Part shown: positions 4,168-42,290 of the stretch, one piece after another | How positions within the stretch are numbered: position 1 is the first letter of the stretch | Layout of the letters: each line of letters opens with the position of its first letter | Assembly: GCA_027452045.1 (NCBI GenBank) | Contig: DAIDHH010000011.1 | Location: 1 to 55,637 of the forward strand | DNA: 55,637 nucleotides | Direction: 5' to 3' | Origin: Gammaproteobacteria bacterium | Lineage (GTDB): Bacteria > Pseudomonadota > Gammaproteobacteria > Steroidobacterales > Steroidobacteraceae | The notes under the pieces: model-generated | Databases searched by the model: none | Seen by the model: only the letters and a program-made list of their open reading frames with translations | What the model was told of the DNA's origin: nothing | Translations under genes and position numbers: made by a program

Positions 4168-4776
4168 GTGACCTTTTCACTTCCCTCGCTTCCCTTTGCA
4201 CCCGGCGCGCTCGCCGCCCGCGGCATGTGCCAGGAAACCCTGGAGCTTCATCACGGCAAGCATCATCAGGCGTACGTCACCGCGCTGAACGGGCTCGTCG
4301 AGAAGAACGACGCCCTCAAAGGCAAGAGCCTGGAGGAGATCATCCGCCTCGCCTACGAGCGCAGCGATCTTGCGGCCGTATTCAACAACGCCGGCCAGCA
4401 TTGGAACCACAGCCTGTTCTGGAATTCCCTGTCGCCGAACGGCGGCGGCATTCCCGGCAGCCTCGAAAAGAAGCTCTCCTCGGACTTCGGCGGCGTCGAC
4501 AAATTCAAGGAGCAGTTCAAGGCCGCGGCCCTCGGGCAGTTCGGCTCGGGCTGGGCCTGGCTGGTGCTCGGCACCGACGGACGGCTGAAGATCACCAAGA
4601 CCGGCAATGCCGGAACGCCGGTGGCGAGCGGCGAGGGCAAGGCGCTGTTGGTCCTCGACGTGTGGGAGCACGCCTACTACGTGGACTTCCGCAACCGCCG
4701 CGCAGATTTCGCGGACAACTTCCTCGCCAAGCTGGCGAATTTCGAGTTCGCTGCGGCCCAGCTCGCCGCGGCCTGA
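4168..4776 (+). CDS. sodB: Superoxide dismutase, iron type
   Basis: Converts superoxide to oxygen and hydrogen peroxide in the cytoplasm. The 202-residue protein has the normal Fe/Mn SOD length. The four metal ligands are visible as H28, H81 (WNHSLFW), D164 and H168 (DVWEHAYY). Q77 lies in the AGQHWNH motif, at the position where iron enzymes carry the second-sphere glutamine, and the C terminus resembles FeSOD, so iron is the likely metal. The start is a GTG at 4168 preceded by TAGGAG at 4155-4160. No signal peptide is present. It is divergent from the ClC gene and convergent with the downstream esterase, so it is probably transcribed alone. Confidence 0.93.
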   Translation: MTFSLPSLPFAPGALAARGMCQETLELHHGKHHQAYVTALNGLVEKNDALKGKSLEEIIRLAYERSDLAAVFNNAGQHWNHSLFWNSLSPNGGGIPGSLEKKLSSDFGGVDKFKEQFKAAALGQFGSGWAWLVLGTDGRLKITKTGNAGTPVASGEGKALLVLDVWEHAYYVDFRNRRADFADNFLAKLANFEFAAAQLAAA

Positions 4777-16152: not shown

Positions 16153-17286
16153 TCAGTAAGCGTGGTCATCGCGGGCGATGGTCTCGGCGCTGACCTTACC
16201 CCGCATCACCCAGAACGCCCAGCTCGTGTACCACAGGATGAGCGGCACGAAGAACGCGGCGAAGCCGATCATCCACAGCAGGGTCAATTTGCTCGAGCTG
16301 GAATTCCACACCGTCAGGCTCATCGACGGATTGCTGCTGGAAGGCAGCATGAACGGGAACAGCGCGGCGCCGGCGGTGCCGATCACACCGATCCACGCCA
16401 CGGCGCCGAGCCACCACCCGAGGTGCGAGCGGCCGGCGCGCGCGGCGATCAGCGCGCCGATCATGCCGCCAAAGCCCGCAAGCGGCACGACCCAAAGGAT
16501 GGGATGCGCCTCGAAGTTCGCGAGCCACGCTCCGGGCAACACGCTGACCGACTGCTCGAACGGGGTCTGCAGCACGCCAGGGCCCGGGCCGCCGGTGAGC
16601 CGGTAGCCGCCGAGCGCGCGAACCCAGAAGCCGCCAATGGCAAACAGTGCGATCGCCGCCGCGGCGCCCACCTGCGCGATGCCGCGGGCGCGCTCGAACA
16701 TCGGGCCCTCCGCCCCGTTCATTACCGTGAGCGAGCCCATCATCGCCGCGAGCGCAAGCGAGAGGACCCCGGTCAGGATGGCGAAGGGATTGAGCAGCCC
16801 GAGGAAGCTGCCGGTGTAGTAGGAAGTCATGTTCCACTCGAAGTGAAACGGCACTCCGTGGAAGAGATTCCCGAAGGCGGCGCCGAATACGATCATCGGC
16901 ACCGCGCCGCTCACGAACAGCACCCAGTCCCACACCCCGCGCCAGTCCGCACTCGCGATCCGGCTGCGGTACTCGAAGCCGAGCGGGCGCATGATCATCG
17001 TCCACAGCAGCAACAGCATCACCACGTAGAAGCCCGAGAACGCCGTGGCGTAGATCAGCGGGAAAGCCGCGAATATCGCGCCGCCGCCCAGGATGAACCA
17101 CACCTGGTTGCCGTCCCAGTGAGGCCCGATGATATTGAGCGCCACGCGCCGCTCCTCGTCGGTGCGGCCGACGTAGCGCAGGATCGCCCCGACGCCCATG
17201 TCCATGCCGACCATCACCGCGAGCCCCATGAGCAGCACCCCGAGCAGGAGCCACCAGATCACCTGCGCGACCGCATAGACTTGCAT
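16153..17286 (-). CDS. cydB: Cytochrome bd ubiquinol oxidase subunit II
   Basis: Integral membrane subunit, 377 residues, which pairs with CydA in the proton-motive quinol oxidase with high oxygen affinity. The conserved IIGPHWDGNQVW block, the long series of membrane helices and the C-terminal SWAFWVMRGKV end are typical. The ATG at 17286 lies 3 bases after the cydA stop, so translation is probably coupled. Length matches E. coli CydB (379). Confidence 0.96.
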   Translation of the reverse strand: MQVYAVAQVIWWLLLGVLLMGLAVMVGMDMGVGAILRYVGRTDEERRVALNIIGPHWDGNQVWFILGGGAIFAAFPLIYATAFSGFYVVMLLLLWTMIMRPLGFEYRSRIASADWRGVWDWVLFVSGAVPMIVFGAAFGNLFHGVPFHFEWNMTSYYTGSFLGLLNPFAILTGVLSLALAAMMGSLTVMNGAEGPMFERARGIAQVGAAAAIALFAIGGFWVRALGGYRLTGGPGPGVLQTPFEQSVSVLPGAWLANFEAHPILWVVPLAGFGGMIGALIAARAGRSHLGWWLGAVAWIGVIGTAGAALFPFMLPSSSNPSMSLTVWNSSSSKLTLLWMIGFAAFFVPLILWYTSWAFWVMRGKVSAETIARDDHAY

Positions 17287-27769: not shown

Positions 27770-28807
27770 TCACCCCGGACGGCCGGCGAGCGCCTGCGCG
27801 AGGGGCTGGTCGGCGAGATTCTCGATGAACCAGTTCGGATAGACCGGGGCTGGAACCGTCGCGGCGTCGAGTTCCGCGATGTCCCCCTCGCTCAACGCCA
27901 GGTCCGCCGCACGCAGGTTGTCCTCGAGCTGGTGCAGCTTCGAGGACCCGAGCAACACGCTGGTCACGGCGGGCTTGGCGAGGAGCCACGCGATGGCCAC
28001 CTGGGCGACGCTCGCCTGGCGGGCCGAGGCGATGGCACGCATGCGCTCGATGAGCCCGAATCCGGCTTCCTTGTCGAAGGGCAGCAAGTCGAAACCGGAC
28101 ATGCGATTGTCGGGATCTGACAGGCTCTCGCGCGTGTACTTGCCGCTCAGGAAACCGCCGGCGAGCGGACTCCAGACCGTCAGCCCGAGGCCATAGCGGC
28201 GCATCATCGGGATCACGTCCCGCTCCACATCCCGGCCGAGCAGCGAGTAATACATCTGACCGTGCGTGAACTGCGCAAGGCCCCTTGCCCGCTGCAGTTC
28301 GAGAGCCGCCGCGACGCGCCACGCCGACCAGTTGGAAAAGCCTAGATAGCGCACCTTGCCCGCGCGAACCACCGCATCGAGCGCCTCGAGCGTCTCCTCG
28401 AGCGGCGTGTGCCGGTCCTCCCGATGGGCGATGTAGACATCGATCCAGTCCGTGCCGAGGCGCCTGAGGCTCTCATCCACCGACCAGAGGATGTGACGCC
28501 GCGAGAGTCCTGACTGGGTCAGGGGCTCACCGCTGCGGAAACCCACCTTGGTGGCGATCACGACGCGATCGCGGTGAGGTCTGAGCGCCGCGCCGAGGAG
28601 CGACTCCGACTCCCCGCCCGCGTAGGCATCGGCGGTATCGAAGAAATTGATGCCGGCATCGAGTGCGCGCTCGATGAGCTCCCCGGCCGCCTTGGCGCCC
28701 ACTTTGTACACCGCGCCGAGATCGCGGTTCCCGGCAGTGAAGGTCATCGCTCCGAAGGCGAGTCGGGAAACGAGGAGTCCCGTGGACCCCAGGATCGAGT
28801 ACTGCAT
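27770..28807 (-). CDS. Aldo/keto reductase
   Basis: NADPH-dependent carbonyl reductase of the AKR superfamily, 345 residues, TIM barrel. The tetrad is visible: D and Y in FFDTADAYAGG, K in IATKVGF and H in YIAHRED. The C-terminal cofactor site LLGSSKLHQLEDN is intact. Close to the YajO/Tas/YghZ group judging by its opening MQYSILGSTGLLVSRLAFG. Convergent with the S9 peptidase; upstream genes on the same strand (DUF1993) may be cotranscribed, with a 34-base gap. Confidence 0.9.
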   Translation of the reverse strand: MQYSILGSTGLLVSRLAFGAMTFTAGNRDLGAVYKVGAKAAGELIERALDAGINFFDTADAYAGGESESLLGAALRPHRDRVVIATKVGFRSGEPLTQSGLSRRHILWSVDESLRRLGTDWIDVYIAHREDRHTPLEETLEALDAVVRAGKVRYLGFSNWSAWRVAAALELQRARGLAQFTHGQMYYSLLGRDVERDVIPMMRRYGLGLTVWSPLAGGFLSGKYTRESLSDPDNRMSGFDLLPFDKEAGFGLIERMRAIASARQASVAQVAIAWLLAKPAVTSVLLGSSKLHQLEDNLRAADLALSEGDIAELDAATVPAPVYPNWFIENLADQPLAQALAGRPG

Positions 28808-28841
28808 GGCTATTAGGGAGTCCCGCCGCGCCCGCAACGCC

Positions 28842-29360
28842 TCAAGTCATGGTCATCGGGATGGCGCCGAGGAAATCACGCTTGCCGAGATCCACCCCGT
28901 TGTGGCGCAGAATGCCGTAGGCGGTGGCGAGGTGGAAGTAGAAGTTCGGCAGCACGAAATGGTTGAGATAGTCAGCGCCCCGCATGTGGCCCTTGTGATC
29001 CGGCCCCAGGGGGAAGGTGATGTCGCGATCGGCAGACCCGTCGATGCTCCTGGCATCGAGCGCTTTGACGTACGCGAGCGTCTTGGATATCCGCGCCTTG
29101 AGCTCCCCGATCGTCTTTTCGCTGTCCTCGTGCCGGGGCGGCTCGACGCCGGCCAGCCTCGCGCCACCGTTCTTCGCCTGGTCGCACACGATCTGGACCT
29201 GACGGGCGAAGGTGAACATGTTGGGGAACAGACGCTCGTTGAGCAGCACGGCCGGATCGATCTTCTTCGCTTCGGCATACGCCTCGGCCTTCTCGAGCAG
29301 CGCCGAGAGCGCGTTCAGGCCGATTTCGAATACGGGAAGGGACGCCTTGGACATGGACAT
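28842..29360 (-). CDS. DUF1993 family protein
   Basis: 172-residue cytoplasmic protein of the DUF1993 family (PF09351), a four-helix fold similar to DinB; function unknown. Family features seen are PVFEIGLNALSALLEKAEAY at the N terminus, LFPNMFTFARQVQIVCD in the middle and NFYFHLATAYGILRHNGV near the end. The ATG at 29360 has GAGG eight bases upstream. It is divergent from osmC with a shared 104-base promoter region, and precedes the aldo/keto reductase on the same strand. Confidence 0.82.
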   Translation of the reverse strand: MSMSKASLPVFEIGLNALSALLEKAEAYAEAKKIDPAVLLNERLFPNMFTFARQVQIVCDQAKNGGARLAGVEPPRHEDSEKTIGELKARISKTLAYVKALDARSIDGSADRDITFPLGPDHKGHMRGADYLNHFVLPNFYFHLATAYGILRHNGVDLGKRDFLGAIPMTMT

Positions 29361-29370
29361 GTCGGGAACC

Positions 29371-29399
29371 TCACTTCGGAATTGCGCATACGATATAGT
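29371..29399 (+). promoter_or_regulatory. Candidate osmC-family gene promoter
   Basis: TATAGT at 29394-29399 is a good -10 box; TCACTT 17 bases earlier is a poor -35. Predicted start is about 60 bases before the OsmC ATG. Confidence 0.35.
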
Positions 29400-29464
29400 C
29401 CCGCACGGGCCACGGCAACCCGCTTTCGGGGGGTGGGCCCCAAGCGCCAATTGAGGATATTCTC

Positions 29465-29926
29465 ATGGCTTCACACAAGGCCACGGTGGAGTGGCGCCGC
29501 GGCTCCCAGCCCTTCCTCGACAACAGGTACGAGCGCGCCCATGTCTGGACTTTCGATGGCGGCGCGAAAATCGACGCATCGAGCTCCCCGCACGTGGTGC
29601 GCGCGCCGCTCTCCAATCCGGATCTCGTCGATCCGGAGGAAGCATACGTGGCGGCGCTCTCGAGCTGCCACATGTTGTGGTTTCTCAGCATTGCCGCCGC
29701 CAACGGCTATCGGGTGGATACGTACCGCGACGAGGCGATCGGCCACATGACGCGCAACGAGAAGGGAAAGCAGTGGGTGAGCCGCGTGGAGCTGCGGCCC
29801 CGGATCGTCTTCTCCGGAACCAGACTCCCCGAGCCATCGGACGTGCAACGCATGCACCACGAGGCTCATGCGGAGTGCTTCCTCGCCAACTCGGTGCGCA
29901 CCGAAGTGTCGGTCATTGCAGCATAG
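29465..29926 (+). CDS. OsmC-family peroxide-reducing protein
   Basis: 153-residue protein of the OsmC/Ohr superfamily, thiol peroxidases for organic hydroperoxides. The two redox cysteines are present, one in LSSCHMLWFLS and one in HAECFLANS, at the usual separation. The opening ATVEWRRG is a common OsmC start. GAGGATATTCTC precedes the ATG. Divergent from DUF1993; it belongs with the redox and metal stress genes that follow. Confidence 0.88.
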   Translation: MASHKATVEWRRGSQPFLDNRYERAHVWTFDGGAKIDASSSPHVVRAPLSNPDLVDPEEAYVAALSSCHMLWFLSIAAANGYRVDTYRDEAIGHMTRNEKGKQWVSRVELRPRIVFSGTRLPEPSDVQRMHHEAHAECFLANSVRTEVSVIAA

Positions 29927-30007
29927 TGTCAGGCGCAGGCCTTGACCGGCGGACCCGGTAGAACACACCGCCCTGCAGAGGCAGGTCCGCTGCGCCGCAG
30001 CAAAGAG

Positions 30008-30547
30008 CTACAAGGCGTCCCGGGACCGCCTGTCGAGCCACAGCACGATGAGCCGATCGGCCGACAACCGCCCCGGACCGAGGGTGATGAGCGAGAGCGC
30101 GATCGCGGCCCAGGGCAGGTGGAAGTTTTCCCAACCCGAGGGCACGGTGAGCTGGATGACTCCGATCATGACCAGAAGCCCCGCAGCGCTGAATCGCGTG
30201 GCGAGACCCGCCATCAGGAGAATGGGCAGACCCACCTCGGCCACCGCATCGAGGTGCGCAAGGAGATCGGGCATCGGGAAGGGGTAGAGATGCCCGAACA
30301 GGTGCAATCGGAACAGCGACTCGAACAGGTAGTCCGCCACTGGCGAGACGTGCAGCCAGCCGCTCCACTTGGTGAGACCGGAGCGCAGGAAGGGAATGGC
30401 GATGGCGAAGCGCGCAGCGAGGGGGGCGAGCGGGGCCGCGCCCCTCGCGAGACGCTCGAGCAGAGGCTGCGCGGCGCGCACGGCGCGATCGGCAAGGGCT
30501 GAGGAAGGGAGACTCGGGGTGTTTCCCGGGGAATGATTCAGCGACAT
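30008..30547 (-). CDS. DoxX-family membrane protein
   Basis: 179-residue membrane protein with about four helices and the DoxX pattern (LRSGLTKWSGW, AEVGLPILLMAGLATRFSAAGLLVM). Members often accompany DUF2282/DUF692/DUF2063 genes; the role is undetermined, possibly redox or quinone-linked. Its ATG at 30547 overlaps the end of bufC by 10 bases, making it the last gene of the bufferin operon. Confidence 0.88.
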   Translation of the reverse strand: MSLNHSPGNTPSLPSSALADRAVRAAQPLLERLARGAAPLAPLAARFAIAIPFLRSGLTKWSGWLHVSPVADYLFESLFRLHLFGHLYPFPMPDLLAHLDAVAEVGLPILLMAGLATRFSAAGLLVMIGVIQLTVPSGWENFHLPWAAIALSLITLGPGRLSADRLIVLWLDRRSRDAL

Positions 30548-31344
30548 GAGAGGCTCTTCTTCGGGCTGCAGGTGGGGCGGCGCCTGCGCAGGCGGGCGCC
30601 GGTGATGAGACCGCTCTCGAGGAGCGCGGTGAGGTGTTGGGTGAGATCGAACGATTCGCTGGCAGCGGCAGCGGCCGCTGCCAGGGACTCGCCCCGGGCG
30701 AGGGCCCGCAGAAACCGCGCCCCGTCCGGGGGCACGAGGCGGACCTCGACTTCGGCCGCGGGACGGACGATCAGGGCCGCCTGCGCGCCCGAATCGAGGT
30801 CAATGGGCGCGGGGCTCTGCTCCAGCCTGTTTGCGTGCCAGATCGTGAGCGCCGGGAAGGCCGAGCGCACCAGGCGCATCGAGGGATGGAGCGTGAAGCG
30901 CAGGTCTGCCATCCGATGCGCGGGGATGCTCGCAAGGACTTCCCGGTGGAGCGGCTCGGCCTCGGCGGCGTGATAGGCCTCTATCCAGGCGCGCTCGATG
31001 CGCGCGACATCGCCGAGGTAGGGATGGCCCGAGAGCGGCTCGAAGTGGTCGAGGAACTCGGGGAAGCCCTCGCCGTAGTGCAGCATGATGGGCGAGCGGG
31101 GCGGATCTTGCAGCGCGTGCAGCCCCGCCACGGCGCGAAAGTATTCCTCACCCACGAGACGGCGCACGACCGGATAGGCGACCTCGAGCGCCTCGATGAG
31201 ACTCGAGGCCACGTTGTTGCGATAGACGGCGAAGCGCCGCATATCGGCATGCCCCGAGGGATCGATGCACTCCGCGGGCATGGAGCGCCGCGGATCGAGC
31301 AACGCCGCGACGAACGCCCTTTGTCGCTCAGCCAGCGGCCGCAC
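30538..31344 (-). CDS. bufC: BufC, DUF2063 partner protein of bufferin maturation
   Basis: 268-residue protein of the DUF2063 family, the usual partner of DUF692 enzymes in peptide modification; thought to present the precursor peptide to the iron enzyme. Typical features are LAERQRAFVAALLDP at the N terminus, RRFAVYRNNVASSLIEAL and the YPVVRRLVGEEYF segment. The GTG at 31344 has GGGGAGAGGG five bases ahead, so I prefer it to the ATG at 31374, which would lengthen the overlap with bufB. The C terminus is a winged-helix-like domain. Lies between bufB and doxX. Confidence 0.87.
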   Translation of the reverse strand: MRPLAERQRAFVAALLDPRRSMPAECIDPSGHADMRRFAVYRNNVASSLIEALEVAYPVVRRLVGEEYFRAVAGLHALQDPPRSPIMLHYGEGFPEFLDHFEPLSGHPYLGDVARIERAWIEAYHAAEAEPLHREVLASIPAHRMADLRFTLHPSMRLVRSAFPALTIWHANRLEQSPAPIDLDSGAQAALIVRPAAEVEVRLVPPDGARFLRALARGESLAAAAAAASESFDLTQHLTALLESGLITGARLRRRRPTCSPKKSLSCR

Positions 31345-32251
31345 GGACCCTCTCCCCGACGGCTGCGCAATCATTCATCAGACCCTCGGCCCGCAGGGCT
31401 TGCCCGTGCAGCCTCTCCCAGGCCGGCAGGCATTGGTCCCACTCGATGAGGGTTGGGATGGGGCCGAGGTCTCCGATCACACGCGCATAGAGCCCCCAGA
31501 CGGTGTCGCAGATTTCGCGGTCGTGCGAATCGATCAACAGAGGCCGCTCCGCCGCATCGGCATCGGTGGCGTGGCCCGCAAGGTGAATCTGGCGCACCGC
31601 GGTGAGCGGAAACGCATCGAGATATCGCCACGGATCCCAGCCCTGGTTGGTGCAGGAGACGTAGGCGTTGTTCACATCCAGCAGCAGCGCACAACCGCAG
31701 CGCTGCGCCACCTCGGCGATGAAATCGGTCTCGGACCAGTCGCTTTCGGCGAAAGCCACATAGGTGGAGGGGTTCTCGAGCAGCAGCTGCCGCCCGAGCG
31801 TCTCCTGCACCTGATCGATGTGCTCGCAGACGAGCCCGAGCGTCTCGGTGGTATAGGGAACGGGCAGCAGGTCGTTGAGGAAGGCCGTTCCGTGGGAGCT
31901 CCAGGCGAGGTGCTCCGATACGAGCGCCGGCTGGTAGCGCCGTACGAGCACGGCGAGACGGCGCAGGTGTTCCCGATCGAGCGGACGGGCCGCCCCGATT
32001 GACAGTCCCACACCGTGCAGGGACAGCGCGTAGTGGGAGCGGATCTCGCTGAGATAACGGTGGGGAGGGCCACCCTCGCCCATGTAGTTCTCGGCGTGTA
32101 CCTCGAAGAAGCCGACGTCGGGCCGGCTCTCGAGGATGTGCCGATAATGCGCCGGCTTAAGGCCAACCCCGGCGCGCGCGCGCAGGGTGTCAGGCCAGGG
32201 ACAGGACCCGGTGCGCGCATCGCGGCGCAAGGCGTTGCTTCGTTCTCGCAT
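31328..32251 (-). CDS. bufB: BufB, DUF692 multinuclear iron oxidase (MNIO)
   Basis: 307-residue TIM-barrel enzyme of the DUF692/MNIO family, whose di- or tri-iron centre oxidises cysteines of ribosomally made peptides into heterocycles such as thiooxazoles. Iron-binding and family motifs seen are GVGLKPAHY, FFEVHAENYMG, SLHGVGLSIG, SEHLAW, LLENPSTY and LLLDVNNAYV. GGGGAGGACCTC precedes the ATG. It follows bufA1 after 48 bases and overlaps bufC by 17 bases, so the peptide, enzyme and partner are made together. Confidence 0.92.
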   Translation of the reverse strand: MRERSNALRRDARTGSCPWPDTLRARAGVGLKPAHYRHILESRPDVGFFEVHAENYMGEGGPPHRYLSEIRSHYALSLHGVGLSIGAARPLDREHLRRLAVLVRRYQPALVSEHLAWSSHGTAFLNDLLPVPYTTETLGLVCEHIDQVQETLGRQLLLENPSTYVAFAESDWSETDFIAEVAQRCGCALLLDVNNAYVSCTNQGWDPWRYLDAFPLTAVRQIHLAGHATDADAAERPLLIDSHDREICDTVWGLYARVIGDLGPIPTLIEWDQCLPAWERLHGQALRAEGLMNDCAAVGERVRAAAG

Positions 32252-32299
32252 GAGGTCCTCCCCTGACCGGGGGATGGCCCCCGGTCAGGACGTCGAGGC

Positions 32300-32638
32300 T
32301 CAGATCGAGCCGAGCTGACCTTTGATCATCGTGAGGCTGCCGTGGCCGAGCGGCGTTTTGATCGAAGTGCACGTGCCCGTCGGCACCAGCTTGAACGCAT
32401 TGCCCGCGTAGTTGCGTGCAGCGGTGCCCGCGCAGGTGGTGCCGGGTCCGGCGTAACAGTCGTTCTGCCCGGCAAGCGCCACGCCGAAGCACTTCTCCCA
32501 TTGCCCGGTCTTCAACGCCCGCATGGTCTTCTGCGGCGGGGTCATCTTCATCCCGCCGGCGCTCGCCGGCTGTGCGCTCAAGGACGCCGCGGCGGCAAGC
32601 GCGCCCGCCACGATCATCGATGCGGTTCGAGTGGACAT
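32300..32638 (-). CDS. bufA1: BufA1, bufferin-type DUF2282 precursor peptide
   Basis: 112-residue precursor of the DUF2282 family with a signal peptide ([20 protein letters not shown]) and a core with four conserved cysteines in EKCFG, NDCYAG, TTCAG and TGTCTS, the spacing of bufferins. In studied bacteria such peptides are modified by BufB and exported to the periplasm, where they bind copper and protect the cell. The ATG at 32638 has GGAGATAA in front. It is first in the operon and is preceded by an ECF-type promoter at 32718-32743. Copper as the metal here is inference from homologues. Confidence 0.9.
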
Positions 32639-32717
32639 AGAGTTATCTCCGAAAATGGGTTGATGGCATGAGCCGGCGGATCCGCTCGCACCGCGGATTG
32701 CGCGTGGCTGCCGTACA

Positions 32718-32743
32718 TTCGGGCGAGAGGGCGCGAAAGTTAC
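32718..32743 (-). promoter_or_regulatory. ECF sigma (SigF-type) promoter of the bufferin operon
   Basis: Minus-strand GTAACT (32743-32738), 16-base spacer, CGAA (32721-32718), about 80 bases before bufA1. It matches the GTAACC-N16-CGAA type promoter that I recall for the Caulobacter SigF (ECF16) group, and a second copy faces the sigma gene. Confidence 0.72.
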
Positions 32744-32792
32744 AGCGCCGTGCGAGCGCACGACCCGCCTGCCCCCTGGGCCGCGCACCCCT

Positions 32793-32818
32793 GTAACCTT
32801 TCGGGCCGGCCAAACGGA
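32793..32818 (+). promoter_or_regulatory. ECF sigma promoter of the sigF operon
   Basis: GTAACC (32793-32798), 16-base spacer, CGGA (32815-32818), 104 bases before the sigma GTG. Same elements and same spacing as the bufferin promoter, so the sigma factor probably drives its own gene. A TACAAT at 32840-32845 could be a separate housekeeping -10 box. Confidence 0.68.
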
Positions 32819-32922
32819 TGATGGGCAGAGGGTATGCGTTACAATCGCATGCCCGGTGGAGCTGCAGGCTTGCAGGTCCCGATCCTGGAATCGCCGGAGT
32901 GACCGGCCGAGGAGAGAGTTCC

Positions 32923-33453
32923 GTGGCGGACGAGCACTGGCGGACGCTGATGATGGCGGTACAGGCCGGCGATACCGTGGCCTACCGGCGCCTGCTCGTC
33001 GAAGTCGGCTCCTGGCTGCAGGCCTACTACTCGAGGCGCCTGCCCTCGGGCATGGTGGACGATGCCTCCCAGGAGGCGCTGATGACCCTGCATGCGAAGC
33101 GGCACACCTACGACCCCTCGAAACCCTTCGGACCGTGGCTTGCGGCGATCGCGCGCTACAAATGGATCGATCGGCTGCGCGCCATGAAAGCCGCTGCGAC
33201 CGAGGAGCTCTCCGAGGAGCCCGCCGTGCGGGACTGCGGCGAAGCCGTGCAGAGCGCGCGCGCGCTCGAGGCGCTCCTCGAGAGACTCAAGCCCGCACAG
33301 GCCAACGCCATACGACTGGTCAAAATCGAGGGTCTCAGCCTCAAGGAGGCCGCCGAAAAATTGGGTCAGACGATCTCGCTCGTCAAGGTCAACATCCACA
33401 GGGGACTCAGGCAGCTCGGCGAGCTTGCCCAGGAGGAAGGCCATGAATTTTGA
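32923..33453 (+). CDS. sigF: ECF sigma factor, SigF (ECF16-like)
   Basis: 176-residue extracytoplasmic-function sigma factor with region 2 ([35 protein letters not shown]) and region 4 ([26 protein letters not shown]). The GTG at 32923 has GGAGAGAG six bases upstream and replaces an upstream ATG at 32818, which lies on the promoter itself. It overlaps the anti-sigma gene by 11 bases. In Caulobacter the homologous pair responds to heavy metals and controls bufferin and MsrP-type genes; the same regulon is likely here. Confidence 0.88.
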
Positions 33454-34084
33454 CAGCCTGATCGATCGCCTGGCCGACGATCTGACACCCGTTCGCCGAC
33501 GGCGCCCCTGGGCGGACATGCTGACCGTCGCGGCCATCGCCGTGGCGGAACTGGCGCTGCTGTTCGCCGTGGGCTTCGCACACATGAGCCTGCACAGGAT
33601 GATGACCGAGCCCACGCTGTGGTGGCGTCTCGCAAGCCTCGGCCTGATATCGCTCCTGAGCGGCGCACTCGCCATCCGATCCTTCGATCCCGCCTACTCC
33701 CCGCGAGACGGGCTGCGCTGGCTCGCGCTGATCATCGCGCTCTGCCTGGCATTCGGATTGCTCATGGGCGGACTGCCGGGCGGACTGGCGAGCATCGCGC
33801 GACGCCTGGATTGGACGAGCGGCGTTCAGTGCGCGTACAAGATGGCACTGTTGTCCGTCCCGCCCCTGATCGGTCTTGCCCTGCTCGGACGCCGCGGCGC
33901 CCCGACAGACCTGCGGCGCACCCCGTTGTTGATCGGGCTGGCAGCCGCGGCCTGGGGCGCCTTTGCGTTCGTATTCGCCTGCCCGTTCGACGATCCTCTG
34001 TACATCGCCGTCTGGTACAGCGTGGGATGCGGCATCGTGATCGGGCTCGCCCGGCTGATCCTGCCGCGCATCGCGCGCTGGTGA
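33443..34084 (+). CDS. nrsF: NrsF-type anti-sigma factor (DUF1109)
   Basis: 213-residue membrane protein with a short cytoplasmic head ([19 protein letters not shown]) and six membrane helices, as in DUF1109/NrsF, which holds SigF inactive until metal or oxidant stress. Cysteines in or near helices 3-6 (IALCLAFG, VQCAYKM, FACPFDD, VGCGIVIG) may be the sensor, since conserved cysteines of NrsF are needed for the response. AGGAGGAAGG precedes the ATG at 33443; the start four bases inside the sigma gene suggests coupled translation. Confidence 0.86.
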   Translation: MNFDSLIDRLADDLTPVRRRRPWADMLTVAAIAVAELALLFAVGFAHMSLHRMMTEPTLWWRLASLGLISLLSGALAIRSFDPAYSPRDGLRWLALIIALCLAFGLLMGGLPGGLASIARRLDWTSGVQCAYKMALLSVPPLIGLALLGRRGAPTDLRRTPLLIGLAAAAWGAFAFVFACPFDDPLYIAVWYSVGCGIVIGLARLILPRIARW

Positions 34085-34114
34085 GGCAAGGGCCAGGGGC
34101 CGCTCCCGGCTCAC

Positions 34115-34142
34115 GGAACCCGCCGCGTCGACAGACATCTAA
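34115..34142 (+). promoter_or_regulatory. Candidate RpoE-like promoter of msrP
   Basis: GGAACC (34115-34120) and TCTAA (34138-34142) with 17 bases between, resembling the GGAACTT/TCTRA envelope-stress sigma-E promoter. The predicted start is only about 6 bases before the msrP ATG. No GTAAC-N16-CGAA promoter is seen here, so msrP may otherwise depend on read-through from sigF-nrsF. Confidence 0.4.
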
Positions 34143-34154
34143 TCCAATACCGTC

Positions 34155-35138
34155 ATGGCAGCACGCATCCCTCGCATCGCCCCTTCCGAGATCACCCCCC
34201 CTGAGGTGTATTTCAACCGCCGCGCGTTTCTCACCGGCGCCTTGGCCGCCGGCGCCGGGGCGGCGCTCGGCCGCGCCGGAGCCGCGATCGTGCCGGCACA
34301 ATCCGGTGCGCCGCTCGGCTACACGCTCGACGCGGCGCAATCCGTCGACGCCCTGGTCCACGCGCCGGGCCAGAACGAGCAGCCCAATACCTGGGAGCAG
34401 ATCACCCACTACAACAACTACTACGAGTTCGGCACCGGCAAGTCGGACCCCGCCGAGTACGCCGGCCAGCTCAAGACCCGCCCCTGGAACGTCGTCGTCG
34501 ATGGAGAGGCGGAGGTCACCGGGAATTTCCCGCTCGAGGAGTTCCTCAACCCCTACGCCCTGGAGGAGCGGATTTACCGCTTTCGCTGCGTGGAGGCGTG
34601 GTCGATGGTCATCCCCTGGGTGGGGTTTCCCCTGGCCACGCTGCTCAAGCGGTTCAAGCCCACCTCGCGGGCCAAGTACGTGGCGTTCCAGACGCTTTAT
34701 CGCCCGAGTCAGATGCCCGGCCAGCGTCTGGACATCCTGCAATGGCCCTACCGCGAGGGACTGCGCATCGATGAGGCGATGAATCCGCTCGCCTTCATGG
34801 TCGTCGGCCTCTATGGGCGCGTACTGCCCAACCAGAGCGGCGCCCCGCTCAGGCTGATCGTGCCCTGGAAATATGGTTTCAAGGGCATCAAGGCCATCGT
34901 ACGGATCACCTTCGTGGAGAATCAGCCGGCCACCACCTGGAGCCAGGCGGCCCCCGATGAGTATGGCTTCTACGCGAACGTCAACCCCGACGTACCTCAT
35001 CCACGCTGGAGTCAAGCCACGGAAAGACGCATAGGCAATCCGTTCTTTCACGAGCGCCAGCCGACGCTCATGTTCAACGGCTATGCCAACGAGGTGGCCT
35101 ACCTCTACAAGGGCATGGACCTGCATCGGTACTTTTGA
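34155..35138 (+). CDS. msrP: MsrP, periplasmic methionine sulfoxide reductase, molybdopterin subunit
   Basis: 327-residue molybdenum enzyme (YedY/SUOX fold) that reduces methionine sulfoxide in periplasmic proteins. A twin-arginine signal ([13 protein letters not shown]) shows folded export; the molybdenum-binding cysteine is in [11 protein letters not shown], and the conserved [15 protein letters not shown] and FTERRIGN-like ([11 protein letters not shown]) segments follow. It lies 70 bases after nrsF and 13 bases before its haem partner msrQ on the same strand, so one operon from the sigma gene onward is possible. Confidence 0.93.
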
Positions 35139-35151
35139 ATCGATATCCGCC

Positions 35152-35877
35152 ATGACGGCCGCATCGCCCACACACGCCAGACCCTTTCTCGGCCTGAACG
35201 TCGAACGCCGCTACCGGCTCCTCTACAAGCCGGCCGTGTTCCTTGCGGGCCTCGTGCCGATTGCCTGGATCGCCAGCCATCTGCTCGGCTGGTTCGGCTT
35301 GCTTCCCGCGGTCGATCCGGTGAAATTCCTCGAGCTCGAGTTCGGCCAGACCGCGCTCAACTTCATCCTGCTCACCCTGATGATCACCCCGGTGCGCCAG
35401 CTCGCCGGACTGACACATCTGCCACGCCTGCGCCGGATGCTCGGGCTGTTCGCGTTTTTCTACGCGGCGCTGCACTTCACGGTGTATGTGGTACTCGATC
35501 TCGATCTCAACTGGCGCATGGTCGGAGCGGATATCATCAAGCGCCCCTACATCACGGTAGGTTTCACCGCGCTCCTGCTGCTGATTCCGCTCGCCGTGAC
35601 CTCCACTCAGCGCATGATGCGCCGCCTCGGGAAGCGCTGGACGAAGCTCCATCGCCTGATATACCTGATTGCAATCCTCGGTGTCTGGCACTACTACTGG
35701 CAGGTGAAGCTCGATGTGCGCGAGCCGCTGCTCTACGCCGGCATTCTCGCGCTGCTGCTCGGCTACCGCGCGGTGAGGTCGCTGCGCAAGCGCGCGCCTC
35801 AGCGGACCAGCAAGCGGCCCGGCGGCATGTGCGGGCATGCGGTAGCCGCTGCGTGCGATGACATCCACACGGCCTAG
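35152..35877 (+). CDS. msrQ: MsrQ, haem-b membrane partner of MsrP
   Basis: 241-residue integral membrane cytochrome (YedZ family), with six helices, which passes electrons from the quinone pool to MsrP. The haem-ligand histidines are in FFYAALHFTVYV and in LHRLIYLIAILGVWHYYW. The ATG at 35152 follows msrP after 13 bases; earlier in-frame codons belong to the msrP end. The C-terminal tail is longer than that of E. coli YedZ and basic (KRAPQRTSKR). Confidence 0.92.
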   Translation: MTAASPTHARPFLGLNVERRYRLLYKPAVFLAGLVPIAWIASHLLGWFGLLPAVDPVKFLELEFGQTALNFILLTLMITPVRQLAGLTHLPRLRRMLGLFAFFYAALHFTVYVVLDLDLNWRMVGADIIKRPYITVGFTALLLLIPLAVTSTQRMMRRLGKRWTKLHRLIYLIAILGVWHYYWQVKLDVREPLLYAGILALLLGYRAVRSLRKRAPQRTSKRPGGMCGHAVAAACDDIHTA

Positions 35878-35889
35878 CCGCGTCCTCGC

Positions 35890-37365
35890 ATGCCCAAACT
35901 CCGCGCAGCCTCAGAACCGTCATCGCGCCCCGTCATCGTCTGGTTCCGGGATGACCTGCGCCTGAGCGACCATCCCGCGCTTTCGGCCGCGGTCCGATCC
36001 GGGCGGCCCGTCATTCCGCTCTACATCCTCGATGATCGCCTGGGCCGCCCGCCCGGCGGCGCGGCCCGCTGGTGGCTCCACCACAGCCTGCTGGCGCTCG
36101 CCGCGTCGCTGAGCGCAACGGCCATCGGTCCGCAACGCCCGGCGCGGCTCATTCTGCGCCGGGGTCCGGCCGCCGAGGTGCTGCGGAAGCTGATCGAGAC
36201 GACGGACGCGTCGGGCGTGATCTGCAATCGCTCATACGACCCGGATCGAGAGGCGGCGGACCGCGTACTGCGGTCCACGCTGCGCTGCGAATTTGAAACG
36301 TTGCCCGGCGCGCTGCTCGCCGAGCCGTCGGCGCTTCGCACCGGCGGCGGCGATCCGTTTCGCATCTTCACGGCCTTCTGGAACCGCCTGAGCAGCCTCG
36401 AGATCGCGGCACCGCTCCCCAAGCCGCGCCTCATCCCGGGGCATGCCGGGACGCTCGAGAGCGAGCGTCTCGAGGACTGGAAGCTTCTGCCGCGCGTTGC
36501 CTGGGATGAGCAGTTCCATTCGCTGTGGACGCCTGGCGAGCAGGGGGCCGCCGCGCGCGTGCGCACATTTCTCGGCAAGAGGCTCGCGGACTACCGCAAT
36601 ACACGCGACAACCCCTCGCTCGAGGGTACCTCGCGTCTCTCGCCGCACCTGCGCTTCGGCGAGGTGAGCGCGAGGCAGCTCTGGCACGCGGTGCTGCACG
36701 GCCACGCGCACGCCCCAAGCGAACTTACCGGCAACGGATTTCTGCGCGAGCTCGGCTGGCGGGAATTCGCGCAGCACACCCTGCATCATTTCCCGAGCCT
36801 GCCGGAGCGGGCGCTGCGCCGGGAATTCGAGGCATTCGAATGGCGGGAGGACGCCGCCGCGCTCGAGGCTTGGCAACGCGGGCGCACGGGCTACCCCATC
36901 GTCGATGCCGGCATGCGCGAGTTGTGGCACACCGGTTGGATGCACAACCGGGTGCGCATGATCGTCGGCTCATTCCTCGTGAAGGATCTGCTGCTGCCCT
37001 GGCAACGGGGCGAGGCGTGGTTCTGGGATACGCTGGTCGATGCCGACCGGGCGAGCAACGCGCTCAATTGGCAATGGGTGAGCGGCTGCGGCGTCGATGC
37101 CGCGCCGTACTTCCGCATCTTCAATCCGGTTGCCCAGAGTGAGCGCTTCGATCCCGAGGGCGCGTATCTGCGCAGATGGCTGCCGGAACTGCGCGAACTG
37201 CCGGCACCGGCCATTCATTCGCCGTGGACGATCGCGCCACTGGTGCTCGCCAGCGCCGGCGTCAGGCTCGGCGAGACCTACCCATGGCCGCTCGTCGAGC
37301 ACGCGGCGGCGCGCAAGGCCGCGCTCGCGCGTTTCGAAAGACTCAGACAGCGCGCGGCACGATGA
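35890..37365 (+). CDS. phrB: Deoxyribodipyrimidine photolyase (class I CPD type)
   Basis: Light-driven DNA repair enzyme, 491 residues, which splits cyclobutane pyrimidine dimers with FADH. The N-terminal antenna domain opens VIVWFRDDLRLSDHPAL. The FAD domain has LRFGEVSARQLWH, the signature TGYPIVDAGMRELWHTGWMHNRVRM and DADRASNALNWQWVSGCGVDA. It begins 12 bases after msrQ, so it may be cotranscribed with msrPQ. Photolyase genes are known in SigF/metal stress neighbourhoods; this link is inference. Confidence 0.92.
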   Translation: MPKLRAASEPSSRPVIVWFRDDLRLSDHPALSAAVRSGRPVIPLYILDDRLGRPPGGAARWWLHHSLLALAASLSATAIGPQRPARLILRRGPAAEVLRKLIETTDASGVICNRSYDPDREAADRVLRSTLRCEFETLPGALLAEPSALRTGGGDPFRIFTAFWNRLSSLEIAAPLPKPRLIPGHAGTLESERLEDWKLLPRVAWDEQFHSLWTPGEQGAAARVRTFLGKRLADYRNTRDNPSLEGTSRLSPHLRFGEVSARQLWHAVLHGHAHAPSELTGNGFLRELGWREFAQHTLHHFPSLPERALRREFEAFEWREDAAALEAWQRGRTGYPIVDAGMRELWHTGWMHNRVRMIVGSFLVKDLLLPWQRGEAWFWDTLVDADRASNALNWQWVSGCGVDAAPYFRIFNPVAQSERFDPEGAYLRRWLPELRELPAPAIHSPWTIAPLVLASAGVRLGETYPWPLVEHAAARKAALARFERLRQRAAR

Positions 37366-37410
37366 GCGGAAGCGAAGTCATCCCAACTTCGTGACGCCCA
37401 TGGGCGCGAG

Positions 37411-38751
37411 TCATGGGCTGGGGGGATCGGCCTTAGCGGGATCGGCCTTAGCGGGATCGGCCTCGCTCGAGGATGCGCCGCCCGCCGCCGATCCGGCTGC
37501 GCAGCGGTGCGAGCCACACTTCGAGGCAGGGTGCGCGGGAGCGGGCCTGGGAAGATCGTCGACGTGCGCCAGAGCCTTGCGCTGCTCGGGCGTGAGGGTC
37601 CCGGCGTATGCCTTGTGCAGCGGCGTGGTGGCGAGCGGCAGGTCCGTGCTGCCATTCCAGGTGGACCCGGCGGGCAGCCGGTTCTGCACCCGGGTCGCAT
37701 CGGCGAGGATCTGCTCGAGACCCGGGCTGCTCCTGCCCGAGACGGGCACGGGTATGCCCCGGGGGGAAGCGACGAGCTGCCCGACCCGTCTCCAGTCGAT
37801 CCGCTGCCCATGCTTGCGCAACTCAACACGCTCGGCACGGGTGAGCATTCTCGGCAGGAGGCGCCGCCACTCCTTCTTCCAGGGCCGCTTGTCGCCCTTC
37901 AGCGGCCCGTAGGCCACCATGTACAGCCTGCCGTCCTTCCAGCCAAAGAGGTACGGCTGGTTGACGACGCGCACCTCGGTGCCGTTCGGCACCATGTAAA
38001 AGATCTGCTTGATGTCCTCGGGAAAGAGATGGACGCATCCATGGCTCACCCGCCACCCGACGCTCACCGGTTTGTTGGTGCCGTGGATGAGGTACCCAGG
38101 CCAGCCGAGGTGCAGCGCGTAGTCGCCGAGCGGGTTCTCGGGCCCCGGTCCGACCACTTTGGGCAGCGGTGCACCCTCCTTGGCGTGCTCGGCGAGAATC
38201 GACGGCGGCACTTCCCAGACGGGGTTCTTCTCGTGCCACATGACACGGGTCACCCCCTGGGGAGTGACGAATCCGCGCCGCCCGATGCCGACGGGATGGG
38301 TGATGAGGAGCTGGGGCTCGCCGCGCTTGTGCGCCGGGAAGTAGAAGAGCCGCATGGCCGGCAGATTCACCACGATGCCCCGATGCGGCGCGTCCGGAAG
38401 GACGAACTGCGTCGGCAGGACCACCGCCGTGCCCTCGTGGGGAATCCAGGGATCGACTCCCGGGTTGGCCCGGGTCATCTCCCGGTAGCCGAGGTTGAAG
38501 CGGCGGCCGATATCGGTGAGGACCTGCCCCTTCTGGACCTTCACGACCTGGAGCGCACCGACGACGTCCTGTCCCGGCGCGAGAACGAACTTCTCGGTCT
38601 GTCGAGGACGCGGCAGCGGCGGCGGCGGTGGAGGAGCGACCTTCGCGGGCGGCGGCGGCGCCCTGCGCAGCGGGGGACCCATCAACGAGCAGGCGCTGGC
38701 AGCGAGCGCCAGGCTTGCGGCCAGCGCGAGGCGGAAGGTCGTGGTTCTCAT
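37411..38751 (-). CDS. L,D-transpeptidase lipoprotein
   Basis: 446-residue envelope protein of the ErfK/YbiS/YcfS/YnhG group that forms 3-3 peptidoglycan cross-links or attaches proteins. A lipobox (ASAC near residue 21) follows the signal peptide, then a Pro-rich linker, a LysM-like domain (VQKGQVLTDIGRRFNL) and the YkuD domain with catalytic SHGCVHLFPEDI. The C terminus ends in tandem ADPAK repeats encoded by a 15-bp DNA repeat. The ATG at 38751 is preferred over an upstream one. Convergent with phrB. Confidence 0.9.
   Translation of the reverse strand: MRTTTFRLALAASLALAASACSLMGPPLRRAPPPPAKVAPPPPPPLPRPRQTEKFVLAPGQDVVGALQVVKVQKGQVLTDIGRRFNLGYREMTRANPGVDPWIPHEGTAVVLPTQFVLPDAPHRGIVVNLPAMRLFYFPAHKRGEPQLLITHPVGIGRRGFVTPQGVTRVMWHEKNPVWEVPPSILAEHAKEGAPLPKVVGPGPENPLGDYALHLGWPGYLIHGTNKPVSVGWRVSHGCVHLFPEDIKQIFYMVPNGTEVRVVNQPYLFGWKDGRLYMVAYGPLKGDKRPWKKEWRRLLPRMLTRAERVELRKHGQRIDWRRVGQLVASPRGIPVPVSGRSSPGLEQILADATRVQNRLPAGSTWNGSTDLPLATTPLHKAYAGTLTPEQRKALAHVDDLPRPAPAHPASKCGSHRCAAGSAAGGASSSEADPAKADPAKADPPSP
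37423..37466 (+). repeat. 15-bp tandem repeat in the L,D-transpeptidase C terminus
   Basis: GGGATCGGCCTTAGC occurs twice in full (37423-37437, 37438-37452), followed by a near-complete third copy. It encodes Ala-Lys-Ala-Asp-Pro units on the minus strand; copy number could vary without a frameshift. Confidence 0.9.
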
Positions 38752-39206: not shown

Positions 39207-42200
39207 TCACGCGCGCCCGGCATCGGGCTTCAGCCATCGCGCCGCGAGCGGCGGCACCAACAGCAGACTGACGACCGTCGAGGACACCAGGCCGCCGAGG
39301 ATCACCACCGCCATCGGCCCCTCGATCTCGTGTCCGGGCTGGTGCAGCTGTACCGCCACGGGCAGGAGCGCCAGCGCGGTGAGCAGCGCCGTAAGCAGCA
39401 CCGGCGTCAACCGTTCCTCGGAGCCGCGCAGCGCCGTTTCCAGTCCCCAGGGCTCACCTTCGGATTGCACGAGGTGATCGTAGTGCGACACCAGCAGGAT
39501 GGTGTTGCGCGCTGCCATGCCGAACAGGGCAACGAAGCCCACCATCGCGCCAAGCGTCAACGTCGCTCCGGTGAGCGCGGCGGCGACCACCCCGCCGATC
39601 AGGGTGCTGGGCAGCACGAGCAGCACCAGGACCACGTGGCGCGCATCGCCGAATGCCAGCGCCATCAACAGGACGATCAGCACCAGTGCCGCCGCGGCGT
39701 GCAGGTAGAGCTGGTGAGCCGCCGCGACCTGCGCTGCAGCCACGCCGCCATAGCGCAGGTACACCCCGGTGGGCAGCCTGACATGCGCGGCGCTCGCCCG
39801 GCGCGCGGCCGCGGCGAAGCCTGTCTGATCCGCGGTAGTCGGGTTCGCGGTCACCACCTGGCGGCGAAGCCCGTCCTCGTGATCGATCTCGCTTCGGCCG
39901 GACTCCATTTCGAGCGTCGCGACGGCCGAAAGCGGCACTACCGCGCCATCGGAACCGCGCAGTGGCAGCGAGCCGATCACCTGAGGCGAGGCGCCTGCAC
40001 CGGCGATGCGCACCGCCACCGGAATGGTGCGATCGGTCTGCGTGAGCTGGCCGACGATCGCGCCCTGGTATGCCGCGTTGACCGCCCGCAACACATCGCT
40101 CGGCCTCAAGCCATAGAGCGCCAGGCGCCCGGGCCGAAGCGTGACGTGCAGCTCCGGTTGGCGCGGCGGAACCTGCAGGCGCACCGCGCCGGCGTGCGGC
40201 AGCTTGTTCAGCACCGCCGCGACCCGCCTCGCCACCGCGTCATCGGTATCCAGGTCGTTGCCGAACACACTGACCACGAACGGCGCGGTCTCACCGGACA
40301 ACGTCTCGCCGATGCGCTCGGCGAGCACCGAGTAGACCTCGGTGAGCTGGTTTGGGAAGTCTTCGAACACTTTGCGGATCGCCGCCTCGATCTGACCGGG
40401 CGTGTAGCCCTTGGACGGATCGATCTGGATGTCGAATTCGCTCTTGTTCGGCGCGTCGCGATCCTGGCCGTTCACGGCGCGACCGATCTGCTCCGCCACG
40501 CTCTTGACGCCGGGGATCGCGAGCAGCCGTCTCGAGATGCGCACTCCGACCCGGGTGGTCTCGCGCAGCGAGATGCCCGGGCGCAGGCTCGCATGGGCGA
40601 TGAGGTAGTTCTCGCGGAAATTCGGCAAGAGACGCTGGCCGAACAGTGGCAGCAGCGCCGCCCCGGCGATCCCGATGCCAAGGAGCAGCGCCAGCACCAC
40701 GCGCGGATAGCGGTGGAGCCGCTCGATCGTGCGCCGCTGGAAGCGCTTGCAGACGAGGAGGAAGGGCGCCTCGGGCGGTGGGCTGCGCTTGCGCATCAGT
40801 AGCGCGCACAACGCTGGCGTGGCACTCATCGCCACCAGCAGCGAGATGCCGACGGCGAGCAGGAAGGCGAGCGACAGCGGCCGAAAGAACGATCCTTGGA
40901 TGCCGGTAAGCATGACGATCGGCAGGAACGCCACCGCCACCGCAGCGGTGGCATAGAACACGGGCTGCCGCACTTCCAGCGAGGCGCCGACGAAAAGTTG
41001 CCGGGCATCGAGCGCCCCGCCGGCGGCGCCGGCGTTGCGACGCCTGCGGGTGATGTTTTCGACGTCGATGACCGCATCGTCTACGACCACCCCGAGCGCC
41101 ACCACCAGGCCGCCGATGGTCATCGTGTTCAGCGACAGCCCGAACAACTCGAGGATCCACACGGCCGCCAGCAGCGACAGCGGGATCGAGGAGAACGAGA
41201 TGAGCGCGCCGCGCCAGTCGCGCAGCGTCGCGAGCAGCAGAATGACCACCAGGACCGCGCCTATGAGCAGCGAGGCGCGCAATTTGACGAGCGCGCTCTC
41301 GATGAAGCTCGCCGGCCGCAGCAGCGCCGGGTGGTAGATCACCCCCTCCCTTTCGAGCGCCGGAGCAAGCTCGTTCAGCCGATGCTCCAGCGCGCGAGTC
41401 ACCGTCAGGGTGTTGGCGCCATACTGCGTCGAGGTCTCGACGAGAATGCCAGGCTCACCGCCGATGACCCCGTCACCGAAGCGCGGCGCCGAGCCATCAC
41501 GCACGGTAGCGATGTCTCCGAGCCGGATGGGCAGACCGTGGCGCGTAGCGAGCACCGCCTGCGCCAGCGCCTGCGGCGTCGCGCCGGGCGCCTGAGCGCG
41601 CAACACGATGCGCTGCGAGGGTGTCTGGATGTAGCCACCGCCGATGAGCTCGGTGCCGCGCCGCGCGGCGCGCAACACCTCGTCCAGAGTCACACCGTCG
41701 GCGAGCAGCTTCTGCGGATCGACGATCACCTGGCGCTCGCGCTCGGCCCCGCCGTAGAGCATCACCTGCGCCACGCCGGGCACCGCCAGGATCTGCGGCT
41801 CGACCACCCAGCGCGCCACGCTGCGCAGCTGCACCGGCGTCAGCCGGTCACTGGTGAAGCCGAAATGCTCGAGATACTGCATCGATGAGGAAAGCGGCGA
41901 GAGCAGCGGCGGGCCGACGCCCGCGGGCAGGATGCCCGCCGCTCCCGCCAGGCGCTCGGTGACTACCTGGCGCTGCCGATACGGATTGCCGCGGCGCTTG
42001 AACACCACGTAGATCGCGGACAGGCCCTGGATCGACTTCGAGCGCACCGTCTCGACGCCATCGGTGCCCGCAAGCAGGCCCTCCAGCGGACGCGTCACCA
42101 ACGCCTCGACCTGCTGGGCGTCGAGTCCTGGCGCCTCGGTCTGCACGGTCACGTGCGGCGGCGCGAAATCAGGGAAGACATCGAAGCGCGCGTGCAGCAG

Positions 42201-42290
42201 CGCGCCGATGCTCAGCGCCGCGACCAGAATCGACAGCGCGGTGACGATGCGCGGATGCGCCAGCGAGGCGCGCACGATGGTGCTGAGCAT
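39207..42290 (-). CDS. Heavy-metal-efflux-type RND pump (CzcA/CusA-like)
   Basis: 1027-residue RND protein of the HME group by overall architecture: RFDVFPDFAPPHVTVQTEAPG near the N terminus, ALGVVVDDAVIDVENITRR with the proton-relay acidic residues and a second helix bundle after 850. The CusA methionine motif (LPEIDEG then methionine-rich) is replaced by LPNFRENYLIAHASLRPG, so copper/silver transport like CusA is not supported. Substrate unknown, possibly a divalent cation. Its ATG overlaps the adaptor stop by 4 bases. Confidence 0.88.
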   Translation of the reverse strand: MLSTIVRASLAHPRIVTALSILVAALSIGALLHARFDVFPDFAPPHVTVQTEAPGLDAQQVEALVTRPLEGLLAGTDGVETVRSKSIQGLSAIYVVFKRRGNPYRQRQVVTERLAGAAGILPAGVGPPLLSPLSSSMQYLEHFGFTSDRLTPVQLRSVARWVVEPQILAVPGVAQVMLYGGAERERQVIVDPQKLLADGVTLDEVLRAARRGTELIGGGYIQTPSQRIVLRAQAPGATPQALAQAVLATRHGLPIRLGDIATVRDGSAPRFGDGVIGGEPGILVETSTQYGANTLTVTRALEHRLNELAPALEREGVIYHPALLRPASFIESALVKLRASLLIGAVLVVILLLATLRDWRGALISFSSIPLSLLAAVWILELFGLSLNTMTIGGLVVALGVVVDDAVIDVENITRRRRNAGAAGGALDARQLFVGASLEVRQPVFYATAAVAVAFLPIVMLTGIQGSFFRPLSLAFLLAVGISLLVAMSATPALCALLMRKRSPPPEAPFLLVCKRFQRRTIERLHRYPRVVLALLLGIGIAGAALLPLFGQRLLPNFRENYLIAHASLRPGISLRETTRVGVRISRRLLAIPGVKSVAEQIGRAVNGQDRDAPNKSEFDIQIDPSKGYTPGQIEAAIRKVFEDFPNQLTEVYSVLAERIGETLSGETAPFVVSVFGNDLDTDDAVARRVAAVLNKLPHAGAVRLQVPPRQPELHVTLRPGRLALYGLRPSDVLRAVNAAYQGAIVGQLTQTDRTIPVAVRIAGAGASPQVIGSLPLRGSDGAVVPLSAVATLEMESGRSEIDHEDGLRRQVVTANPTTADQTGFAAAARRASAAHVRLPTGVYLRYGGVAAAQVAAAHQLYLHAAAALVLIVLLMALAFGDARHVVLVLLVLPSTLIGGVVAAALTGATLTLGAMVGFVALFGMAARNTILLVSHYDHLVQSEGEPWGLETALRGSEERLTPVLLTALLTALALLPVAVQLHQPGHEIEGPMAVVILGGLVSSTVVSLLLVPPLAARWLKPDAGRA

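Follow-up and report, generated by a model that had tools for sequence, protein, structure and literature searches.

The closest described counterpart of the locus analyzed here is the SigF/NrsF regulon of Caulobacter crescentus (CC3252-CC3257, CC2905-CC2907, and CC2748; PMC3511200, PMC8224329), which contains the same protein families. According to PMC3511200, its SigF-dependent genes encode DUF2282, DUF692, DUF2063, DoxX, and YedY (MsrP) proteins, and the SigF element is GTAACC-N16-CGAA. The same report describes increased expression of the regulon when NrsF cysteines C131 and C181 are replaced by serine, and the appearance of SigF in the soluble fraction with dichromate; the YedY response is only partly SigF-dependent there, and the SigF genes are reported as not induced by reactive-oxygen agents. 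Copper raises the expression of sigF, nrsF, both DUF692 operons, and MsrPQ in every condition examined, with two of the values passing only a less strict test; a strain carrying sigF::Tn5 is copper-sensitive and grows poorly with copper (PMC8224329). The bufferin-1 of Caulobacter chelates copper by cysteine-derived thiooxazoles (PMC12452194). SigF-type systems with MsrPQ are also described in Brucella, where the system controlling MsrPQ answers hypochlorous acid (PMC8315932), and in perchlorate reducers, where it belongs to hypochlorite detoxification (PMC4623255).

The window (the whole analyzed stretch of 55,637 nucleotides) contains two divergent operons within positions 30008-35877, separated by a spacer of 284 bp (Table 1). 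The minus-strand operon has the order bufA1-bufB-bufC-doxX and the plus-strand operon the order sigF-nrsF-msrP-msrQ, followed by a photolyase gene; bufB, bufC, and doxX overlap in turn, and nrsF overlaps sigF. This facing arrangement, proposed in an earlier note from the letters of the sequence, is borne out by the coordinates and by Pfam and NCBIfam matches, and the gene order confirms that the peptide, its maturation, the sensor, and periplasmic methionine repair are adjacent. We consider it highly probable that the two operons together form a SigF/NrsF envelope-stress regulon that is complete in itself.

Table 1. Genes and SigF-type promoter sites of the locus (window positions)
Feature	Positions	Strand	Description
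doxX	30008-30547	-	Membrane protein encoded at the end of the bufferin operon; Pfam DoxX, 51.3 bits; 10 bp overlap with bufC
bufC	30538-31374	-	DUF2063 partner of the MNIO enzyme; Pfam PF09836, 90.5 bits; 47 bp overlap with bufB
bufB	31328-32251	-	MNIO bufferin maturase; NF050167, 386.5 bits (cut-off 310)
bufA1	32300-32638	-	Bufferin-1 precursor, DUF2282; Pfam PF10048, 79.6 bits (cut-off 22.4)
bufA1 SigF-type promoter	32718-32744	-	TGTAAC-N17-CGAA; TGTAACTTTCGCGCCCTCTCGCCCGAA at 32744
sigF SigF-type promoter	32792-32818	+	TGTAAC-N17-CGGA; TGTAACCTTTCGGGCCGGCCAAACGGA at 32792
sigF	32923-33453	+	ECF sigma factor; passes the Pfam cut-offs for sigma70 regions 2 and 4
nrsF	33443-34084	+	Membrane anti-sigma factor; Pfam PF06532 (DUF1109/NrsF), 115.6 bits (cut-off 26.8)
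msrP	34155-35138	+	Periplasmic molybdopterin methionine sulfoxide reductase; NF003767, 461.4 bits (cut-off 207)
msrQ	35152-35877	+	Heme membrane partner of MsrP; NF003831, 193.9 bits (cut-off 130)
photolyase	35890-37365	+	Pfam photolyase domains; starts 12 bp after msrQ

The family assignments are of two kinds. BufB, MsrP, and MsrQ pass the cut-offs of their own NCBIfam equivalogs, and the PDB relatives are 3bww and MbnB for BufB and 1xdq for MsrP (E 7.7e-101). The other proteins exceed Pfam or general cut-offs and stay under those of more specific models: DoxX under HvfX (46.9 of 80 bits), BufC under the HvfC equivalog (37.9 of 142), NrsF under the anti-sigma-F equivalog NF042994 (47.3 of 300), the photolyase under PRK10674 (346.5 of 506), and the sigma factor under the best named model, PRK12539 (147.3 of 171), while passing the general ECF model TIGR02937. 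BufA1 matches Pfam with no NCBIfam match, and its comparison with PDB sequences gave none up to E = 1. This precursor consists of a signal peptide, judged by eye and with a simple A-x-A rule, a 22-residue Met-containing arm, and a four-cysteine core, so that the DUF2282 precursor with signal peptide and four cysteines, the MNIO enzyme, and the DUF2063 partner of a Buf1 cluster are all in place. Similarly, the ECF sigma factor adjoins a DUF1109/NrsF anti-sigma factor with two conserved cysteines, and MsrPQ comprises a Tat-exported molybdopterin subunit, with the twin-arginine signal NRRAFLTG read directly, and a heme membrane subunit. For sigF we chose the GTG start, where alignments of close relatives begin; a longer frame, with its ATG at 32818, would reach the promoter. 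The ECF16 label of the sigma factor, given in the earlier note and used in PMC8315932, is putative.

Several residues are conserved among the aligned relatives. The BufB positions H35, E50, E54, H79, H114, D127, E159, E174, D192, H223, D241, H243, E270, and D272 are kept in 24 of 24 rows, and BufA1 cysteines C50, C61, C69, and C90 in 26 of 26. MsrP C145, which we take to be the catalytic cysteine, is present in all 16 rows. In NrsF, C130 is found in 45 of 45 rows and C180 in 41 of 45; judged by number and spacing, they match the published C131 and C181 of the Caulobacter protein.

The earlier note had placed one promoter region between the operons, and a single shared promoter is rejected, since the spacer holds two separate divergent SigF-type sites. 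Both are close to the published Caulobacter element, with GTAAC followed by C or T and then CGAA or CGGA. In the window, GTAACNTT-N14-CGRA matches at these two sites and nowhere else, and it has no match in 100 shuffles; this window count is not by itself an independent test, as the pattern was picked after viewing these and related sites. The independent tests are the absence of the pattern elsewhere in the genome and the relatives. In the 3.72 Mb, 75%-complete assembly the same two sites are the only exact matches, and the reversed-pattern control gave none. With one mismatch allowed, the draft genome yields 19 matches vs 35 for the control; the extra 17 are thus indistinguishable from chance, a wider regulon in this genome is rejected as a candidate, and no further member can be named. 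Since the assembly is only 75% complete, other regulon members may be missing from it. Within 29400-37600 no sigma-70-like promoter was found, and three terminator-like sites occur at shuffle level.

As in Caulobacter, a DUF2282-DUF692-DUF2063-DoxX operon (there numbered next to sigF-nrsF) is combined with MsrPQ in one regulon, and the type of promoter element and the two conserved NrsF cysteines are also common to both. In Caulobacter, the locus numbers place msrPQ and another DUF692 operon elsewhere, whereas in the window one bufferin operon and msrPQ flank sigF-nrsF as one block. The Met-containing arm of the window BufA1 may be a further difference. Brucella BcrS/AbcS-bcrXQP and the perchlorate-island sigF/nrsF-mrpX-yedYZ similarly bring together a SigF-type sigma factor, an NrsF-type anti-sigma factor, and MsrPQ, in Brucella with divergent GTAACC...CGAA sites, but the partner described there is a methionine-rich scavenger peptide and not a bufferin (PMC8315932, PMC4623255). 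A separate Met-rich peptide gene of the MrpX/BcrX type, as in Brucella, was rejected for the window: inspection by eye revealed none among ORFs of at least 60 amino acids in 28500-37500. Buf1 bufferin clusters, or gig operons, share the DUF2282, MNIO, DUF2063, and DoxX genes together with sigma and NrsF genes; the word MsrP is absent from the main text of PMC12452194, and Oxidored_molyb and ferric-reductase genes come up there in connection with EGKCG/oxazolin clusters. Because the gene families are those of the copper-induced SigF regulon of Caulobacter and SigF sites are present here, we interpret the locus as a known regulon, the SigF/NrsF response to copper and envelope stress, in compact form at a single place.

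Most of this biology has already been worked out in Caulobacter, where the SigF control of bufferin and MsrP-type genes stated in the earlier note proved correct (PMC3511200, PMC8224329), and the function of the present locus is read from such relatives. By analogy, the inner-membrane anti-sigma factor NrsF would hold SigF at rest; copper, another thiol-reactive metal, or an oxidant would perturb the two NrsF cysteines, and the freed SigF would fire the two back-to-back promoters. The left operon would then supply BufA1, whose cysteines BufB with BufC would convert to copper-chelating heterocycles before export, as in other family members, together with DoxX. The right operon would provide more SigF and NrsF, plus MsrPQ to repair oxidized periplasmic methionines. 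The envelope response to copper or oxidants suggested earlier is supported, by analogy, by the copper induction of the same gene set in Caulobacter and by SigF-type sites on both arms. An oxidant could also be the signal, given that SigF-type systems with MsrPQ answer hypochlorous acid in Brucella or detoxify hypochlorite in perchlorate reducers; the lack of induction of Caulobacter SigF genes by reactive-oxygen agents speaks against it.

A search with NrsF gave 30 related loci, whose neighbors were typed by tblastn with the window proteins. The msrP gene directly follows sigF-nrsF in 11 of them (L007 and L027 are cut at contig ends), bufA1 is nearby in 10, and both are present in two, L002 and L027. 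In a sample of 58 genomes of the genus, the window's own included, NrsF was found in 25 and DUF2282 in 16; MsrP and BufB exceeded their cut-offs in 40 and 36 genomes, respectively. The proposed search for the same block in related genomes recovered it in four of the 58 (G000, G066, G029, and G008, the last up to a contig end); these counts are not independent of the 30 loci, as L002 and G066 lie on contigs of equal length (53536) and the NrsF proteins of L027 and G008 are the same. Among 397 Pseudomonadota genomes, 81 had NrsF over cut-off; in 30 loci, one each from 30 of the best-scoring genomes, tblastn with the window proteins detected bufA1 or bufB within the sigF-nrsF locus in seven and msrP or msrQ within about 1.5 kb of nrsF in none, a range that more distant msrPQ genes would escape. 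Since the two sites are unique as exact matches in the window and the draft genome, and this gene order is found again in related species, the layout is above chance. The all-in-one layout is real, and few of the genomes and loci searched have it.

Several side observations were made in these searches. Short mechanical ORFs with more than 10% Met were flagged in six of the 30 wider loci; in four of the six the ORF (83-88 amino acids) has the same orientation as a GTAAC-type site that diverges from sigF. Two plasmid records contain NrsF relatives of 44.1% and 38.8% identity. In genus mates, extra SigF-like sites were seen by eye near DoxX-like ORFs (L131 and L132) and near a TonB-receptor-like ORF (L134).

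We analyzed SigF sites across the genus. The motif GTAAC-N17-CG[AGT]A occurs at most 550 bp upstream of the DUF2282 match at 14 of 20 bufA1 places: at all five that face sigF (L001, L032, L033, L048, and L080) and at nine of the 15 that are not beside it, with the start of the site 101-105 bp ahead of the gene in these nine. The six places lacking it include five with no site (L034, L044, L045, L047, and L081) and one with a near match by eye (L039). The same expression matched five of 60 background windows, a number equal to that of the loci with a sigF site on the opposite strand, recorded as a count and not by identity. Upstream of sigF, a SigF-type site was observed in 11 of 15 genes, sampled from 31 genus NrsF places as those with sigF present and NrsF at least 59% identical to that of the window; this selection excludes L076, where no sigF was recognized, and the NrsF groups that are more distant. 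The four genes of the 15 that lack the site (G019, G022, G023, and G025) show GAAACC-N16-CGTA in their upstream sequence. Over the 58 genomes the pattern has 55 matches, not above the 59 of the reversed-pattern control (a total added up from the table), so only where the matches lie is informative: we count 22 of the 55 upstream of bufA1 or sigF/nrsF. Bufferin in this genus is a movable arm, often keeping its SigF site.

The four deviating sigF-side sites, unlike those on the bufA1 side, would fit another reading, in which the two operons are adjacent by chance or old synteny and answer separate signals, bufferin copper, and sigF-nrsF-msrPQ reactive chlorine or oxidants as in the Brucella and perchlorate-reducer systems. 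MsrPQ is also the commoner partner of nrsF in the 30 loci, and the bufferin operon is present at this position in some relatives and missing in others. We nevertheless regard separate signals as unlikely: the same rare site is found on both arms of the window, most bufA1 places away from sigF carry a SigF site, and both gene sets are reported as SigF-controlled and copper-induced in Caulobacter (PMC8224329).

The history of the bufferin operon at this locus can be followed in close relatives. In L022, whose NrsF is 92% identical, osmC, sigF-nrsF-msrPQ, and the photolyase are kept, and about 0.3 kb without a long match replaces the bufferin operon and its promoter; in L003 sigF-nrsF-msrPQ is present and the bufferin operon is absent here. 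The NrsF tree joins L022 with the operon-bearing L002 (support 99/92), the window lying just outside the group; loss in L022 is therefore the simplest explanation, and a recent insertion of the operon is not supported. For L003 and the deeper absences, gain and repeated loss are both possible. In the BufB tree the window, L002, L027, and L032 group with the displaced copy of L079 (96/96). The commoner core in the genus is sigF-nrsF-msrPQ.

The photolyase at the end of the locus indeed follows msrQ closely, but it lies beyond position 35877, where the locus as first delimited ends, and of nine relatives with at least 1.4 kb of flank it was found after msrQ in L002 and L022 and not in the other seven. 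That it is a functional member of a locus answering light- or singlet-oxygen-linked damage, as the 12-bp distance and the adjacency kept in two relatives might hint, is highly improbable in view of those seven loci and of the lack of an exact SigF site of its own. It is a lineage-restricted neighbor, probably a passenger or a read-through gene.

Methionine-rich stretches are Cu(I) ligands and oxidant sinks. At 15 of the 20 genus places BufA1 is of the long type; in these proteins, 22-31 residues separate the predicted signal end, set by a simple rule, from the first cysteine, and this arm is Met-rich in all 15, with 67 Met in 378 residues vs 3 in 952 in the cysteine core; the enrichment in the window protein is modest (3 of 22). 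Linkers of 0-18 residues with at most one Met occur in five short-type proteins (L006, L013, L014, L016, and L045, of which not all are confirmed genus members) and in six relatives outside the genus, some of these extractions being cut at the N-terminus. By eye, a short linker with 0-1 Met was also seen in L044, L047, and L081 and in seven proteins from other Pseudomonadota, so that the arm was not seen in 13 BufA1 relatives outside the genus. Of 34 papers matched in a literature search, none of the 10 listed deals with a Met-rich bufferin, judging by title and abstract beginning, and the word methionine is absent from the main text of PMC12452194. We suggest that the arm is a new, genus-specific detail and treat it as a lead; it might be a substrate of MsrP. 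A rather doubtful extension is that the genus BufA1 is a two-part scavenger, in which the Met-rich arm (MxM, MM) would bind Cu(I) and soak up oxidant, the cysteine core would bind copper via heterocycles, and MsrPQ would keep the arm reduced.

The compactness of the locus could allow a complete SigF copper response, from sensor and sigma factor to the chelating peptide, its maturation proteins, and methionine repair, to be studied as a single unit. Natural versions exist among genus mates, either lacking bufferin at this spot (L022 and L003) or carrying it elsewhere. The Met-rich arm points to a testable explanation for bufferin and MsrPQ sharing a regulon. If the two-part scavenger were true, bufferin would combine what a separate Met-rich peptide and a bufferin each do in known SigF systems, and this would account for one switch common to MsrPQ and bufferin.

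In the long-type BufA1 proteins of this genus, a methionine-rich arm lies between the signal peptide and the cysteine core, with as many as 8 methionines in 28 residues. The loci encoding such precursors are listed below together with other genes of the window.

Long-type BufA1 loci and other genes of the window
Feature	Window position	Strand	Related loci
Superoxide dismutase	4168-4776	+	
Cytochrome bd oxidase subunit II	16153-17286	-	
Long-type BufA1 with Met-rich arm	32300-32638		L034, L037, L039-L041, L046, L082
RND-type pump	39207-42290	-	
Fic protein	53918-55021	+	

A second sigF-nrsF pair of the genus, with no adjoining msrPQ, is located opposite a short-type bufA1 operon (loci L048/L075 on contig C34 of genome G006, and L014); both kinds of pair are present in G006. 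At L136 (G034, contig C169) / L076, a SigF-like site immediately precedes nrsF-msrPQ, and no sigF was recognised beside these genes. SigF-like sites also precede a long ORF at L134 and L135 (G006, contig C35, and G069, contig C49), with a divergent NrsF-family gene (27-28% identity) on the other side of the site; judged by eye, the L134 ORF looks like a TonB-dependent receptor.

The BufB maturase scored above the cut-off in 21 of the 58 genus genomes in the absence of any DUF2282 match, and thus a different precursor is likely in these genomes.
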